DNA of 64,000 nt from Phycisphaerales bacterium. GTDB taxonomy: Bacteria; Planctomycetota; Phycisphaerae; Phycisphaerales; UBA1924. The stretch covers positions 1-64,000 of the forward strand of contig JAFIFZ010000028.1 of NCBI GenBank assembly GCA_020831775.1. The letters are read 5' to 3'. Every line of letters begins with the position of its first letter. Positions within the stretch are counted from its first letter, which is position 1. The notes beneath the pieces were generated by a model that saw nothing but the letters and a program-made list of their open reading frames with translations, was not told the origin of the DNA and made no database searches. Both the position numbers and the translations under genes were made by a program. Positions 5,676-32,397 of this stretch are shown here, in pieces.

Positions 5676-5698
5676 CACTGGCGGACGAGCCGCCAGTG
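5676..5698. repeat. Palindromic intergenic repeat, copy 1
   Basis: Arms CACTGGCGG (5676-5684) and CCGCCAGTG (5690-5698) form a perfect 9-bp inverted repeat with loop ACGAG. The same arms recur at 28311-28333 and 28392-28414. It lies between the convergent 3' ends of the MATE gene and the SurA/PpiD-like gene, a typical site for REP-like elements. Confidence 0.8.
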
Positions 5699-5722
5699 CC
5701 AAAGGTCTGTTGAAGCTTTGGG

Positions 5723-26812: not shown

Positions 26813-27715
26813 TCAGTCGTTGTGCTCGGGCGGCACGCGCAGCGTGAGCGCCCCGGGCAGCGTCTCGATCGTCAGCAAGCCCCCGTCGGGCGAGGGCAGG
26901 GGCTCGCCGTCGGCCTGCAGCATCGCCGGCATCTCAGCGAACGACACAGACATCGACGAGCCGGTGTCGAACACGCTGGCGGGCAGCCTCCCGTGCTGCC
27001 TGAGGCGGCAGGCGATCGCCCAGCCCAGCGCCTTGGGCGCGTTCTTTGCCGGCAGCCAGACCATGTCGAGCTTCCCGTCGTGGGGCGAGGCCAGGAGCGC
27101 CGGATCGAGCCCCGCGCCGTACCGGCGCAGGTTGGCGATCAGCAGGATCGCCCGCTTCTCCGGGCCGACCGCGTCGCGCCCGTCGACAGAAACCGACGCC
27201 CGCACCAGCCGCGGCGAGACCGCCTCGCGCAACACCGGCCCCGCGTACGACAGCTTCGTGATCGTGCCCTCGCGCTTGGCCGCCAGCCGGTGGATCACCC
27301 CCGCGTCCGGCCCGGCGCTGAGCATGATCGCAAACGGACGCCCGTTGGCCGTGCCGAGATCGATCTTCATGTCCCGCCCGCGTTCGATCGCCCCGAGCAG
27401 CCGGCGCGGGTCGGACGTCATCGAGAACGACCGGGCGACGAGGTTCTCCGTCCCCGCCGGCAGGTGGTACAGCGGCGAGCCGAGTTCGATCAGCCGGGGA
27501 AGCGCGTGATGGATGGAGCCGTCGCCCCCGGAGACCACCACCAGATCCGGGCTGCCTCCCGCACCGTCGTCGGTGAAGGCGCGGGGAGCGAGCATCTCGA
27601 CCTCGTGCCCCGCGTCGGTGAGCTTCACCCTCGCCCGCTCGGCCAGGCGCAGCCCGCGCCCCGCGCCAGAGTCGGCGTTGGCGAGGATCAGGATCCGCTT
27701 CGGTTCTGTGCGCAC
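26813..27715 (-). CDS. Diacylglycerol/sphingosine kinase-like protein
   Basis: A 300-residue protein of the DAGK_cat family: ILANADSGAGRG (nucleotide-binding loop), VVVSGGDGSIHHAL (catalytic GGDGS) and LPAGTENLVAR (family PxGTxN). The C-terminal beta-sandwich ends with PSPDGGLLTIETLPGALTLRV. Such enzymes phosphorylate diacylglycerol or related lipids at the membrane; YegS- and BmrU-like members are poorly characterised. The start is GTG at 27715 with no visible Shine-Dalgarno. It is divergent from the leader region of the lysW cluster. Confidence 0.82.
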   Translation of the reverse strand: MRTEPKRILILANADSGAGRGLRLAERARVKLTDAGHEVEMLAPRAFTDDGAGGSPDLVVVSGGDGSIHHALPRLIELGSPLYHLPAGTENLVARSFSMTSDPRRLLGAIERGRDMKIDLGTANGRPFAIMLSAGPDAGVIHRLAAKREGTITKLSYAGPVLREAVSPRLVRASVSVDGRDAVGPEKRAILLIANLRRYGAGLDPALLASPHDGKLDMVWLPAKNAPKALGWAIACRLRQHGRLPASVFDTGSSMSVSFAEMPAMLQADGEPLPSPDGGLLTIETLPGALTLRVPPEHND

Positions 27716-27813
27716 GCGGGTGGTAACTCGGGTGAAATAGTCGGTCGAATCAGGGTGTCTATGCCGGACAACGGCGGAAACTTTCCGCTCAAGGGCTTGA
27801 CCATCAAAATCCG

Positions 27814-27984
27814 ATGGCGAAGATAGTCAACACGACCGGAGAACTTTTCGTGGCCCAGCTTCCGCAGATCAGCACGATTCCCGCCCAGAGCATGAAGGTG
27901 CTCCCTGGGATCGTCTGCTTTTGCATGAAAGCCAAACTCCACGGGACCACGATCTCCGGCATCGGGTGCAAAGCCGCCCGATAA
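27814..27984 (+). CDS. Possible 56-residue small protein upstream of lysW
   Basis: ATG at 27814 opens 56 codons ending TAA at 27982-27984. The translation starts MAKIVNTTGELFVAQ and has three Cys (two in CFC, one in GCK). Counting by eye, G or C occupies about 50% of first, 46% of second and 79% of third codon positions, the three-base pattern expected of coding sequence in a GC-rich genome but weaker than in neighbours. It lacks a Shine-Dalgarno sequence. A terminator starts 25 bases after the stop. It could also be a chance ORF inside an RNA leader. No family recognised. Confidence 0.35.
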   Translation: MAKIVNTTGELFVAQLPQISTIPAQSMKVLPGIVCFCMKAKLHGTTISGIGCKAAR

Positions 27985-28009
27985 ACCCCCCAACGCGTTC
28001 AAGCGACGG

Positions 28010-28040
28010 GCCCGCCGGAGATCACCGGCGGGCTTTTTTT
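28010..28040 (+). terminator. Intrinsic terminator or attenuator 58 bases before lysW
   Basis: A perfect 9-bp stem (28010-28018 with 28025-28033) with loop AGATCA is followed by seven T (28034-28040). No established gene ends just before it on this strand. It therefore serves either the 56-codon ORF, a small RNA, or an attenuator acting on lysW. Confidence 0.88.
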
Positions 28041-28098
28041 ATCCACATCCAAGCCAGACCCGCGGGCCAAAACGCCCGCACCCCACGGAGACACAGCC

Positions 28099-28290
28099 AT
28101 GAGCGACACCCAGACCCAGACCCTCACCGCCACCTGCCCCGAGTGCGGCGCCGTCATCAGCTTCGACCGCCAGCCCCGACGCCACGAGATCGTCCAGTGC
28201 CCCGACTGCGGCACCGAGCTCGAAGTCGTCGCCACCGAGCCGATCCGTCTCGCGGTCGCCCCCGAGGTCGAGGAAGACTGGGGCGAGTAA
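28099..28290 (+). CDS. lysW: Amino-group carrier protein LysW
   Basis: A 63-residue carrier. Two CPxCG knuckles (CPECG at residues 14-18 and CPDCG) bind zinc, and the acidic body ends EEDWGE. The C-terminal EDWGE is the defining feature of LysW: the gamma-carboxyl of its last Glu is joined to the amino group of alpha-aminoadipate (or glutamate) so that later intermediates travel bound to the protein. GGAG at 28087-28090 precedes the ATG by eight bases. It heads the order lysW-lysX-lysY-lysZ-lysK. Spacing to lysX is unusually large (161 bp) and holds two palindromic repeats. Confidence 0.95.
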
Positions 28291-28310
28291 GACCCGCCGC
28301 TGACCTGTGG

Positions 28311-28333
28311 CACTGGCGGCTCGCCCGCCAGTG
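28311..28333. repeat. Palindromic intergenic repeat, copy 2
   Basis: Arms CACTGGCGG and CCGCCAGTG are identical to copy 1, with loop CTCGC. It begins 20 bases after the lysW stop. Confidence 0.8.
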
Positions 28334-28391
28334 TTCCCGCCCTCTCAGGTGGCCCGGCTCGCCGAGCCGGGTGCAGACAAACGAGACCAAC

Positions 28392-28414
28392 CACTGGCGG
28401 ACAAGCCGCCAGTG
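28392..28414. repeat. Palindromic intergenic repeat, copy 3
   Basis: Arms CACTGGCGG and CCGCCAGTG again, with loop ACAAG. Between copies 2 and 3 lies another inverted repeat, CCCGGCTC-GCC-GAGCCGGG, so the lysW-lysX spacer holds three hairpins in a row. Confidence 0.8.
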
Positions 28415-28451
28415 CCACAGCGACCCCAGTCAGACCCACGAGAAAGCCCCC

Positions 28452-29321
28452 ATGCGCGTCACGCTCCTGCACTCCCGGATCCGCGTCGAAGAACGCCTGC
28501 TGCTCGACGAACTCGAGCGCCGCGGGATCGATGCTCGTCCCCTCCACGCCGACGAGACCGTCATCGAGCTCACCAGCGACAGAGATCCGGGCCGTCCCGA
28601 AATCCTGATCGACCGCTGCCTGAGCCACACCAAGGCCGCGGCCATCGTCCGAGCCTTCGAGGCCCAGGGCGTCGACTGCATCAACCCCTCCAGCGTCATC
28701 GAGACCTGCGGCGACAAACTGCAGACCACCGCCGCGCTCGCCCGGGCCGGCGTCCCCTCGCCCCGCACGATCGCCGCGTTCAGCTACGAGGGCGCCGTGC
28801 AAGCCGCAGAACGCCTCGGCTACCCGCTGGTGCTCAAGCCGACCGTCGGGTCGTGGGGGCGGATGGTCTCGAAGATCAACGACCGCGACGCGCTCGACGC
28901 CGTGCTGGAGCACAAGGCCCACCTCGGCGGCGTGCAGCATGGGGTGATCTACCTCCAGGAACTCATCAACAAGCCCGGTCGCGACATCCGCGCGTTCGTC
29001 GTCGGCGACGAAACCATCTGCGCCATCGTCCGCCACAGCGAGCACTGGATCACCAACACCGCGCGGGGCGGGCGGGCCGAGGGCTTCCCCGTCACCGATG
29101 AACTCAACGAGATCTGCGTCCGCGCGGCCCACGCCGTCGGCGGGGGTGTCGTCGCCATCGACCTGATGGAAGACCCCGAGCGGGGCCTGCTCGTTAACGA
29201 GATCAACTCGACCATGGAGTTCAAGAATTCGATCGCGCCGACCGGGGTCGACATCCCCGCCAAGATCGTCGACTTCGTGCTCCAGCACGCCCACGCCGGC
29301 GTCTCGCGGGGACTGGCATGA
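28452..29321 (+). CDS. lysX: LysW-alpha-aminoadipate ligase LysX
   Basis: A 289-residue ATP-grasp ligase of the RimK branch. It has SHTKAAAIVRAFEAQG and CGDKLQTTAALARAGVPSPRT (pre-grasp and lid), VLKPTVGSWGRMVSKI (ATP-binding Lys), ITNTARGGRAEGF (substrate loop) and LLVNEINSTMEFKN (magnesium ligands). LysX attaches alpha-aminoadipate to the C-terminal Glu of LysW; some homologues also or instead use glutamate (ArgX). Sequence reading does not settle which. The stop overlaps the lysY start by ATGA. Confidence 0.92.
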   Translation: MRVTLLHSRIRVEERLLLDELERRGIDARPLHADETVIELTSDRDPGRPEILIDRCLSHTKAAAIVRAFEAQGVDCINPSSVIETCGDKLQTTAALARAGVPSPRTIAAFSYEGAVQAAERLGYPLVLKPTVGSWGRMVSKINDRDALDAVLEHKAHLGGVQHGVIYLQELINKPGRDIRAFVVGDETICAIVRHSEHWITNTARGGRAEGFPVTDELNEICVRAAHAVGGGVVAIDLMEDPERGLLVNEINSTMEFKNSIAPTGVDIPAKIVDFVLQHAHAGVSRGLA

Positions 29322-30346
29322 GCGTGCGCGTCGGCATCATCGGGGGCACGGGCTACACCGGAGGAGAGCTCGCCCGCCTGCTGGTCGGCCACCCGCGCGC
29401 CGAGATCGCGTGGGTGACCTCCCGCTCGCGGGCGGGGTGGCCCGTCTCATCCCTGCACCCAAACCTGAGGGGCTTTACGGACCTGAAGTTCGTCGCTCCC
29501 GACGATGTCGAGCCCGTCGATGTCGCCTTCCTCTGCCTCCCGCATGGGCAGACCGCGGGCAACATCGAGCGGTACACCCAGCTCGCCGAACGCGTCGTCG
29601 ACCTTTCGTCGGACTTCCGCCTCAGCGACGCGGAGCTGTACGAGGCGACCTACGGCGAACCCCACCCGGCCCCCGCATGGCTGGACCGCTTCGCCTACGG
29701 CTTGCCCGAGGTCTACCGCGACCGCATCCGAGGCTCAAAGCTCGTCAGCGGCGTCGGGTGCAACGCGACAGCCGTCAACCTCGCCCTGCTCCCCCTGGCC
29801 CGCGCCGGCGTGATCGAGCGGGTGGTGGCGGATGTGAAGGTCGGCTCGTCGGAGTCGGGGGCGGAGCCCTCCGGCTCGTCGCACCACCCCGAGCGCTCGC
29901 ACGCCGTGCGCACCTTCGCACCGACAACCCACCGCCACGAGGCGGAGATCCGCCAGGCGCTCGGCGACTTCGACCTGCACTTCACAGGCACCGCGATCGA
30001 GCTGGTCCGGGGCGTGCTGGCGACCTGCCATGTCTTCGTCAACCGCGACCTGACCGACCGCGACCTCTGGGGCATGTACCGCGACGCGTACGCCGCCGAG
30101 CCGTTCGTGCGGGTCGTCAAGGAACGCCGCGGGCTCTACCGCTTCCCCGAGCCCAAGATCGTCGCGGGGACCAACTTCGCCGATGTGAGCTTTGTCGCTG
30201 AAGAAGGCTCGCGGCGCGTCGTGACGATGTGCGCCATCGACAACCTCGGCAAGGGCGCCGCCGGATCGGCCGTCCAATCCATGAACCTCATGTGCGGGCT
30301 GGAAGAGACCGACGGCCTCCTCTTCCCGGGTCTTCACCCTGTTTGA
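29318..30346 (+). CDS. lysY: LysW-aminoadipyl-phosphate reductase LysY (ArgC family)
   Basis: A 342-residue NADPH-dependent semialdehyde dehydrogenase. GIIGGTGYTGGELARLL is the cofactor loop, LCLPHGQT follows, the catalytic Cys is in SGVGCNATAVNLALLPL, and the C-terminal TMCAIDNLGKGAAGSAVQSMNLM is a classic ArgC/LysY block containing the catalytic-site residues. It reduces the carrier-bound acyl phosphate to the semialdehyde. A serine-rich insertion GSSESGAEPSGSSHHPERSH is typical of the LysY side of the family. It starts inside the lysX stop (ATGA), indicating coupled translation. Confidence 0.92.
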   Translation: MSVRVGIIGGTGYTGGELARLLVGHPRAEIAWVTSRSRAGWPVSSLHPNLRGFTDLKFVAPDDVEPVDVAFLCLPHGQTAGNIERYTQLAERVVDLSSDFRLSDAELYEATYGEPHPAPAWLDRFAYGLPEVYRDRIRGSKLVSGVGCNATAVNLALLPLARAGVIERVVADVKVGSSESGAEPSGSSHHPERSHAVRTFAPTTHRHEAEIRQALGDFDLHFTGTAIELVRGVLATCHVFVNRDLTDRDLWGMYRDAYAAEPFVRVVKERRGLYRFPEPKIVAGTNFADVSFVAEEGSRRVVTMCAIDNLGKGAAGSAVQSMNLMCGLEETDGLLFPGLHPV

Positions 30347-30451: not shown

Positions 30452-31255
30452 ATGATCGTCATCAAGATCGGCGGAGCGGAAGGCATCGGGCTCGAAGCGG
30501 TCTGCAACGACGCGGCCGAACTCGTCCACGCCGGCGAGCGCGTCGTCCTCGTCCACGGCGGCTCCCACGAGACCAACACCCTCGCCGAGCAGCTCGGCCA
30601 CCCCGCCCAGTTCGTGACCTCGCCCTCCGGGCACACCAGCCGCAGAACCGACCTCAGGACCATGGAAATCTTCCAGATGGCCTGTTGCGGCAGGATCAAC
30701 AAGCGCGTCGTCCAGATGCTCCAGGCCCGTGGCGTCAACGCCGTCGGCCTCTCGGGCATGGACGGCGGGCTCTGGCGGGGCAGGCGCAAGAAGGCGATCC
30801 GCATCGTCGAAGACGGGCGGACCAGCGTCCTTCGCGACGACTACACGGGCACAGTCGATCAGGTCAACGCCGCGATGCTCAACCGCCTGCTCAACATCGG
30901 GCTCACCCCCGTGCTCACACCCCCGGGCCTGAGCGAGGAGCACGAGCCGATCAATGTCGACGCCGACCGTGCCGGGGCCAAGACCGCCGGCGCGATGCGG
31001 GCCGACACCTTCATCATGCTCTCAAATGTGCCCGGGCTGCTCCGCTCCTTCCCCGACGAAGGCTCGCTGATCCCCGAGCTCGCCCGCGCCGAGCTCGACG
31101 CGGCGATCGAGCTCGCGCAGGGGCGGATGAAGAAGAAGGTCCTCGCCGCGGGCGAGGCACTGGACATGGGCGTCGGGCGTGTCATCCTCGCCGACGCCAG
31201 AGCCGAACGACCGATACAGCGCGCCCTCTCGGGCGAAGGAACGGTGGTGTCATGA
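30452..31255 (+). CDS. lysZ: LysW-aminoadipate kinase LysZ
   Basis: A 267-residue amino-acid kinase (ArgB superfamily). MIVIKIGGAEG is the N-terminal phosphate-binding loop, VLVHGGSHETN the second glycine motif, and PINVDADRAGAKTAGAM with FIMLSNVPGLL the C-terminal nucleotide region. LysZ phosphorylates the side-chain carboxylate of LysW-bound aminoadipate before LysY acts. A gap of 105 bp separates it from lysY, the only large gap after lysX. Its stop overlaps the lysK start by ATGA. Confidence 0.92.
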   Translation: MIVIKIGGAEGIGLEAVCNDAAELVHAGERVVLVHGGSHETNTLAEQLGHPAQFVTSPSGHTSRRTDLRTMEIFQMACCGRINKRVVQMLQARGVNAVGLSGMDGGLWRGRRKKAIRIVEDGRTSVLRDDYTGTVDQVNAAMLNRLLNIGLTPVLTPPGLSEEHEPINVDADRAGAKTAGAMRADTFIMLSNVPGLLRSFPDEGSLIPELARAELDAAIELAQGRMKKKVLAAGEALDMGVGRVILADARAERPIQRALSGEGTVVS

Positions 31256-32397
31256 CCACAGCGACCGCAAGACTCGACACGGGCGTGCGCCCGAACACGG
31301 CGACCACACCCGCCCAGGCCGCCAACCCCGACCGCGAGGCGATCGACCTCGTCCGCGATCTGGTCGCGGCGCCCAGCATCTCCGGCCACGAGCAGGGCGC
31401 TGTGCGGCTGTTCGCCGAGAGGATGTCGCGCCTGGGATATCGTGCCGCGATCGACATCGCCGGCAACGCCGTGGGCGCGATCGGCTCGACCGACCCGGAC
31501 GCGCCGGAGATCGTCCTGCTCGGGCACATCGACACGGTGCCCGGGCGGATCCCCGTCCGCGTCGATGAAGACGGCTACCTCTGGGGTCGCGGCTCGGTGG
31601 ACGCCAAGGGCCCGCTGGCGGCGTTCGCCATCGCCGGCGCGCGCGCAACTCTGCCCGAAGGCGTCCGCCTGATCGTCGTGGGCGCTGTCGGTGAGGAAAC
31701 GCCGACCTCCCCCGGCGCTCGTTTCATCCGCGACCGCCACCGCCCCGCCGCCTGCATCATCGGCGAGCCCAGCCACTGGGACCGCTACACCGTCGGGTAC
31801 AAGGGGCGGCTGCTTGTCGAGGCGACTTTCGAGCAGAACGGCGGGCACTCGGCCGGGCCTCAGGGCGCGGTCGCAGAGCGCGTCGTCCGCTGGTGGAACC
31901 ACCTCCGGGCCAATGTCGGTGAGTGGAACATCGGTCGTGAGGGCCTGTTCGACACCATCCAGGCCTCGCTGCAGCACATGGAAACCTCGTCGGACGGACT
32001 GACCGATCGCGCCCGCGCCACCGTCGGGCTCCGGCTGCCGACCTGGGCCGACCCCGCGGCGGTCGAGGCCGACCTGCGCACCGTCAGCCCGGGCGTCGAG
32101 TTGCGGGTCTACGGGCACACGCCGGGCGTGCGCACCGGCAGGGCGAACACCGTCTCGCGGGCGCTCGCTTCAGCGATCGCCGACGAGGGCGGCCGGGCGC
32201 GGGCGGTCGTCAAGACCGGCACCTCGGACATGAACACGGTCTTCAGGGCGTGGGGCTGCCCGATCGCGGCCTACGGGCCTGGTGACAGCACCCTCGACCA
32301 CACGCCGGAGGAACGCCTCGACCTGGCCGAGTATCTGCGGTCGATCCGCGTGCTCGGCGGGGCGATCGAGCGGATTGCCCGCGACGCGGTCTCGTGA
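31252..32397 (+). CDS. lysK: LysW-lysine (or -ornithine) hydrolase LysK
   Basis: A 381-residue M20-family metallopeptidase. Zinc ligands and catalytic residues are visible in LLGHIDTVPG, GRGSVDAKGP, VGEETPTSPG, IIGEPSHWDRY and, near the end, TLDHTPEERLDLAEY. LysK releases free lysine (or ornithine) from the carrier in the last step. The first 22 residues are an unconserved extension. The aminotransferase LysJ, which acts just before, is not in this window. The gene converges on phoU with six bases between the stops. Confidence 0.92.
   Translation: MTTATARLDTGVRPNTATTPAQAANPDREAIDLVRDLVAAPSISGHEQGAVRLFAERMSRLGYRAAIDIAGNAVGAIGSTDPDAPEIVLLGHIDTVPGRIPVRVDEDGYLWGRGSVDAKGPLAAFAIAGARATLPEGVRLIVVGAVGEETPTSPGARFIRDRHRPAACIIGEPSHWDRYTVGYKGRLLVEATFEQNGGHSAGPQGAVAERVVRWWNHLRANVGEWNIGREGLFDTIQASLQHMETSSDGLTDRARATVGLRLPTWADPAAVEADLRTVSPGVELRVYGHTPGVRTGRANTVSRALASAIADEGGRARAVVKTGTSDMNTVFRAWGCPIAAYGPGDSTLDHTPEERLDLAEYLRSIRVLGGAIERIARDAVS

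Follow-up and report, generated by a model that had tools for sequence, protein, structure and literature searches.

Why should a strong intrinsic terminator stand just ahead of a lysine-type biosynthetic operon when no established gene ends before it? The question is raised by a 383-nt spacer at positions 27716-28098 of the window, the 64,000-nt stretch of Phycisphaerales DNA analysed here (features lie on the plus strand unless stated otherwise). The window belongs to a genome of 3.55 Mb (G000), and a sister genome (G001) carries a matching locus. On its left, the spacer is bounded by a minus-strand gene encoding a YegS/diacylglycerol-kinase-like protein (26813-27715) and, on its right, by lysW, whose ATG is at 28099. 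A preliminary description had portrayed the spacer as a low-GC leader with no established gene ending ahead of its terminator. Both points stand: the GC content is 59.5%, versus 68.3% in the window, and only 7 of 1273 segments of equal length are as low; the upstream neighbour is divergent.

The downstream operon, lysW-lysX-lysY-lysZ-lysK, is complete. Its first gene, lysW (28099-28290), encodes the amino-group carrier protein (TIGR01206, 73.6 bits over a cut-off of 53.2; PF21344). It is followed by lysX (28452-29321; TIGR02144, 346.5 bits), lysY/argC (29318-30346; TIGR01850, 356.9 bits), lysZ of the [LysW]-aminoadipate kinase type (30452-31255; NF010659, 397.5 bits) and lysK of the [LysW]-lysine hydrolase type (31264-32397, with a putative start codon; NF003367, 394.6 bits), all four scoring above cut-off. 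The lysW-lysX spacer holds, at 28305-28420, a 29-nt inverted repeat of 93% complementarity with arms 58 nt apart. This repeat is mostly absent from G001 (99 indel columns), has a related half copy at 5684-5703 and resembles a mobile element of the small palindromic sort.

The terminator occupies 28010-28040 and is unchanged in G001. Its stem, GCCCGCCGG (28010-28018) with CCGGCGGGC (28025-28033), is a perfect 9-bp helix followed by seven T (28034-28040), and 58 bases separate the last T from the lysW ATG. Folding of the 53 nt from 27990 to 28042 yielded −28.2 kcal/mol, compared with −15.5 ± 2.7 kcal/mol for dinucleotide shuffles, none of 200 being as low. The sequence and the fold thus bear out the terminator as first reported, and place it between the leader ORF described below and the first gene of the operon.

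Two overlapping ORFs of 21 and 56 codons had also been noted, and they exist (27761-27826 and 27814-27984). The former is no more than the end of a longer frame that stays open for 334 codons (26822-27826) on the strand opposite the neighbouring gene. A probable σ70-type promoter spans 27797-27824, with TTGACC at 27797-27802, a 16-nt spacer and a weak GAAGAT at 27819-27824. Other −10 registers are possible, such as GATAGT. Because the −10 box is poor, we place the promoter by homology with those of related leaders. With TTGACC at 27797, ATG 27761 and ATG 27814 would precede the transcript. Both the 21-codon ORF and the beginning of the 56-codon ORF would therefore fall within the promoter, upstream of the transcript, and translation would probably be confined to the 3′ part of the longer frame. 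The preliminary description was right about the two ORFs, but missed the Lys codons of the leader peptide, the probable sensing part.

The leader peptide probably runs from 27850 to 27984, the 3′ part of the 56-codon ORF. GTG 27850 is the likely start, giving 44 codons and a TAA, and is preceded at a distance of 8 nt by GGAG (27838-27841), a possible Shine-Dalgarno sequence. ATG 27925 is a possible alternative that would give 19 codons. ATG 27892 was rejected, as it is missing from the sister genome. In the frame of the 56-codon ORF, positions 27928-27936 read AAAGCCAAA, AAA GCC AAA (Lys-Ala-Lys), which we propose as the regulatory codons. This sequence occurs seven times in the whole G000 genome, the other six copies lying outside such a setting.

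Comparison with G001 revealed five substitutions and no frame change, so that the leader frame is open in both genomes. The two genomes differ at 5 of 155 sites in the leader frame, 6 of 192 in lysW and 33 of 870 in lysX; as the leader diverges about as much as these genes, it does not stand out by conservation alone. Noteworthy are an identical run of 157 nt and the 61 nt from the stop codon to the terminator, which are unchanged; the run was reached in 0 of 2000 permutations, although these took in the indel columns of the variable spacer. The window peptide ends in MKAKLHGTTISGIGCKAAR*, which aligns residue for residue to the stop, over the last 18 codons, with PKAKAKGNTPPGGGRARVH* of genus g24. 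The latter has KAKAKG where the window has KAKLHG. Relative to g24, the window lineage has one Lys codon fewer, and its codons lie about 70 nt further from the promoter. The window and G001 have two Lys codons in the cluster, short of at least three in six codons, which makes the window a weak member of the set of leaders described next.

Direct alignment found no homologues beyond the genus. A protein search with the 56-residue ORF against 61 genomes returned nothing above noise except G001, and a DNA search with the leader against 301 genomes of the order returned full-length matches only in G000 and G001; the remaining matches were short, many of them to the GC-rich stem. The element was therefore recognised in relatives by the layout upstream of lysW. 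Of 163 family genomes, 92 had lysW at an E-value of 1e-6, which with G057 gave 93 upstream regions; after removal of G321 and G322, whose regions were too short, 91 were scored. Side-by-side and scripted reading of these regions revealed a recurrent order: a promoter-like TTGAC motif, a Lys cluster within a short ORF, a GC-rich terminator and lysW.

A short ORF with at least three Lys in six codons was present between −300 and −60 in 80 of the 91 regions. The same pattern arose in 2.8% of dinucleotide shuffles (20 per region), on the opposite strand in 1 of 91 regions, and in 11 of 1080 segments of 240 nt drawn at random from related genomes and read on both strands. The regions share ancestry, so the counts cannot be taken as independent; about 40 genera are represented. 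Several of the 11 regions below the threshold, among those listed, show a cluster if the ORF is allowed to start further upstream. The exact AAAGCCAAA preceded lysW in 47 of 91 regions, versus 0.4% of shuffles. Upstream of the Lys cluster, TTGAC was present in 69 of 85 leaders (18% of shuffles) and TTGAC-N16-19-TANNNT in 39 of 85 (0.4%). Terminator-like hairpins of −15 kcal/mol or better lay between −170 and −25 in 81 of 91 regions (3.5% of shuffles). Some leaders seem almost leaderless, starting a few nucleotides after the −10 box. In genus g3 (L010, L127, L136 and L140), a tRNA-Gly(GCC) gene lies just upstream of the Lys leader, and the two may be co-transcribed because they adjoin. The leader of L281, titled 'Cyanobacteria bacterium CYA', is the same as that of Phycisphaerales G035:C31, and the title looks like a misnomer.

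The enrichment is highest for lysine. When runs of each of the 20 residues were scored, only Lys reached 80 of 91 regions; runs of Ala (47 of 91; 20% of shuffles) and Val (21 of 91; 4%) were also raised. Arginine was considered as the sensed amino acid and rejected, as its runs were not enriched (30 of 91 regions, versus 42% of shuffles). The Lys codons of the leaders are chiefly AAA (314, versus 33 AAG), whereas lysY, lysZ, the lipid kinase gene and two further genes of the window use 42 AAG and 2 AAA. The G000 genome has tRNA-Lys genes with two anticodons, UUU and CUU.

We then asked how the Lys codons might be coupled to the terminator. In the window, GATCTCCGGC (27951-27960), hereafter region 2, is a perfect 10-bp complement of GCCGGAGATC (28014-28023), region 3, which overlaps the 5′ arm of the terminator. 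The two would thus form the 5′ and 3′ arms of an antiterminator. CCGGAGA occurs both at 27836-27842, designated region 1, and within region 3 at 28015-28021, so that region 2 is able to pair with either, and region 1 competes with region 3 according to fold models and a check of the sequence. The duplex of region 2 with the 5′ arm of the terminator had a predicted energy of −26.4 kcal/mol, compared with −16.8 ± 3.0 kcal/mol for shuffled sequences (0 of 200 as low).

Folding of the window RNA in different states was broadly consistent with such a switch. The full naked RNA adopted the 1:2 helix together with the terminator, which corresponds to sequestration of region 2 by region 1 when no ribosome is stalled, as computed for the window only. 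Before region 4 was synthesised, the probability of the 2:3 helix was near 1. With a ribosome masking the RNA up to 27948, this probability was about 0.5 at equilibrium but 1.0 as long as region 4 was absent; with region 2 itself masked, the terminator alone formed. The near equality of terminator and antiterminator at equilibrium under a stalled ribosome counts against an attenuator, and the model consequently needs co-transcriptional order. Region 1-like pairs of the form GACGC..GCGTC were spotted by eye in other genera.

To extend this analysis to the family, we computed the best pairing of the 70 nt after each Lys cluster with the 5′ arm of the terminator. Eighty-five of the 93 regions were included; the script found no terminator in G344, G314 and G315, placed it before the Lys cluster in G340, G286 and G120, and had too little sequence in G321 and G322. 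The mean z-score of the 2:3 duplex over the 85 leaders was −2.0, and 37 fell below −2. In 10 of the 85, the leader's own duplex was no better than about a quarter or more of the shuffles. The distance from the last Lys codon to region 2 is 7-13 nt in 62 of 85 leaders (median 9 nt), such that a ribosome stalled at the codons would leave region 2 free. Moreover, region 2 starts inside the leader ORF in all 85, the stop codon lying a median of 33 nt further on.

Arm-swapping provided a further comparison. With one leader taken from each of 40 genera, own arms paired with −21.7 kcal/mol and arms swapped between genera with −17.9 kcal/mol, an average cost of 3.8 kcal/mol; 0 of 20,000 permutations equalled the true pairing, although the own arm ranked first in only 7 of the 40 genera. 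The co-variation is of arms outside the terminator stem itself. Together, these computations establish the clustering of the Lys codons, the alternative helices with their spacing, and co-variation of the arms from genus to genus: at the level of the family, the leaders carry the cluster and, just 3′ of it, an antiterminator 5′ arm whose pairing is mutually exclusive with the terminator.

The leader is thus very probably a ribosome-mediated transcription attenuator that senses lysyl-tRNA, and the window leader joins the lysW leaders that share Lys codons, antiterminator and terminator. This supports the attenuation of a lysine operon envisaged in the preliminary description, with lysine itself a candidate product. 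We infer the promoter, the start codon, the stalling and the regulation itself from this comparison. According to the model, RNA polymerase would initiate near 27830 and a ribosome would start the short leader peptide. When charged tRNA-Lys is scarce, the ribosome would stall on AAA GCC AAA, covering the RNA to about 27948 and breaking the 1:2 helix. Region 2, once free, would pair with region 3 as soon as the latter is made, no terminator would form, and lysW-lysX-lysY-lysZ-lysK would be transcribed. When lysine is plentiful, the ribosome would proceed over region 2 to the stop codon at 27982-27984; region 2 would be masked or would refold with region 1, the terminator would form and transcription would end near 28040.

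A small RNA and a tiny gene had also been proposed for this locus; the comparison of relatives favours attenuation over both. A small RNA or other short transcript made constitutively and stopped at the terminator, lysW being served by its own downstream promoter, would account for a structured, conserved stretch and for a terminator that no gene precedes. Nevertheless, it is improbable: it gives no role to Lys-codon enrichment confined to one strand and one frame (80 of 91 regions) or to the pairing of regions 2 and 3 just past these codons, and a promoter would hardly fit into the 58 nt that separate the terminator from lysW. Less probable still is a gene for a small Lys-rich protein with a function of its own, the terminator marking the end of the gene. 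Its frame is open in both G000 and G001, and Lys/Ala-rich peptides recur among the relatives, but outside the Lys cluster these peptides differ strongly between genera. Three of the five substitutions between G000 and G001 alter the amino acid, the peptide has no Pfam match, and a protein-coding role does not explain the co-variation of the antiterminator.

Finally, a lysine-binding riboswitch or a T-box acting without a leader peptide, as a structured leader with a terminator ahead of an amino-acid operon might suggest, is the least probable reading, since at gathering score no Rfam family, lysine riboswitch and T-box included, matched in the window and nothing but a tRNA gene in 13 related loci, and there is no conserved aptamer core, leaders beyond the genus aligning only at Lys codons and hairpins. 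Consistent with this, and with the earlier view that no lysine riboswitch is present, searching the leader at E-values up to 10 returned only sub-threshold chance matches (e.g., Streptomyces-metH, 20.3 versus 50 bits), with neither a lysine riboswitch nor a T-box among them.

The identity of the operon's product bears on what such a leader would regulate. LysW systems can make lysine, ornithine or both, and the sequence often cannot tell which. G008 has such a leader ahead of a lys cluster in which the homocitrate synthase gene is next to lysK, an arrangement that links the Lys leader with lysine synthesis in that genome. Homocitrate synthase of this type was found in 20 of the 163 family genomes, all of which have lysW, with a distant match in G027. 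By contrast, searches of G000 yielded neither a homocitrate synthase like that of the relatives (E 1e-20) nor a TIGR02146 match (E 1e-40); a genome search did not find argJ, and lysA is present. Since the homocitrate synthase of the relatives is missing and lysA is present, lysine is a candidate product of the G000 operon and no more; judged from gene content, lysine and ornithine are both candidates. Five lysW genomes (G004, G005, G012, G014 and G015) had no homocitrate synthase, argJ or lysA over cut-off.

The leader was present in 16 of 18 genomes with homocitrate synthase and in 64 of 73 without it. It is thus no commoner with the enzyme, which speaks against the leader tracking a complete aminoadipate pathway. 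Either the genomes without it use another homocitrate synthase, or their operon makes ornithine while still heeding lysine. A broader proposal, which we consider rather doubtful, is that Lys-codon attenuation is general for LysW operons in Phycisphaerales and part of Chloroflexota and that, in the G000 lineage, lysyl-tRNA controls LysW-carried ornithine/arginine synthesis, the operon product there being no longer, or not only, lysine.

To determine how far the leader extends, we searched other lineages. In a phylum sample, LysW was found in 21 of 294 genomes (E 1e-8), 15 of them in other families; of the 14 of these that were analysed, one (G518) had a Lys-rich ORF and 13 did not. Among 80 named loci, a Lys-rich ORF preceded lysW in 11 from Chloroflexota (Anaerolineae, Ardenticatenia and unclassified: L227, L229, L232, L236-L238, L248, L251, L269, L280 and L290), and none did so in Chloroflexus, Herpetosiphon or Oscillochloris. 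The clusters in these 11 are of AAGAAG. Region 2 paired with the terminator arm in all 11, which were selected for having the Lys-rich ORF, with 0 to 22 of 200 shuffles reaching the same value. These AAG leaders are likely another lineage of this device, built on the alternative Lys codon.

Classical attenuation was worked out mainly in enterobacteria, and lysine is usually quoted with a riboswitch. The leaders described here resemble the trp, his, leu, thr and ilv attenuators of enterobacteria in that the leader ORF contains codons for the amino acid under control, the 1:2, 2:3 and 3:4 helices exclude one another and a terminator precedes the first gene; they differ in that the amino acid is lysine. 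In the trp leader, region 2 comes after the stop codon, whereas here it starts within the leader ORF in 85 of 85 cases. A close precedent is the lysine cluster of Thermus thermophilus, in which Tsubouchi and colleagues (J Biol Chem, 2005) reportedly described attenuation by a lysine leader peptide upstream of the α-aminoadipate-pathway genes. Because of this precedent, lysine attenuation is counted here as a known kind. The present leaders would share with it a lysine leader peptide and attenuation, but belong to another phylum and lie directly upstream of lysW across many genera.

In the searchable text of PMC3356886, which concerns the Thermus lysine genes, regulation is not mentioned. The lysine riboswitch (L-box) likewise acts at the RNA level ahead of the coding region of lysine genes; by contrast, no Rfam match to it was found in the window or its relatives, and the sensor here would be a translating ribosome. 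The leader-peptide attenuators of Shewanella (PMC2659441) and of Actinobacteria (PMC1262725) were, like these, found by comparing leaders of orthologous operons. A passage of PMC1262725 reports no RNA regulatory structure upstream of the actinobacterial lysine operons and names only the L-box for lysine. For Planctomycetota and Chloroflexota, a search of the open literature returned no report of attenuation by a lysine leader peptide.

The general attenuator scheme is described in PMC1183508, as is the theory that leaders tend to use, as regulatory codons, those read by the tRNAs most sensitive to starvation. The use of AAA in leaders of genomes that favour AAG, with two tRNA-Lys genes (UUU and CUU), would provide a natural test of this theory as to which codon is first to lose its charged tRNA. 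If the model is correct, a widespread and so far uncatalogued mode of control acts on the LysW pathway in most lysW-bearing Phycisphaerales, with a similar one in some Chloroflexota. The Lys codons would then be a built-in readout of the amino acid that the cell couples to its LysW operon, which matters because the product of a LysW system is so often unreadable from sequence.
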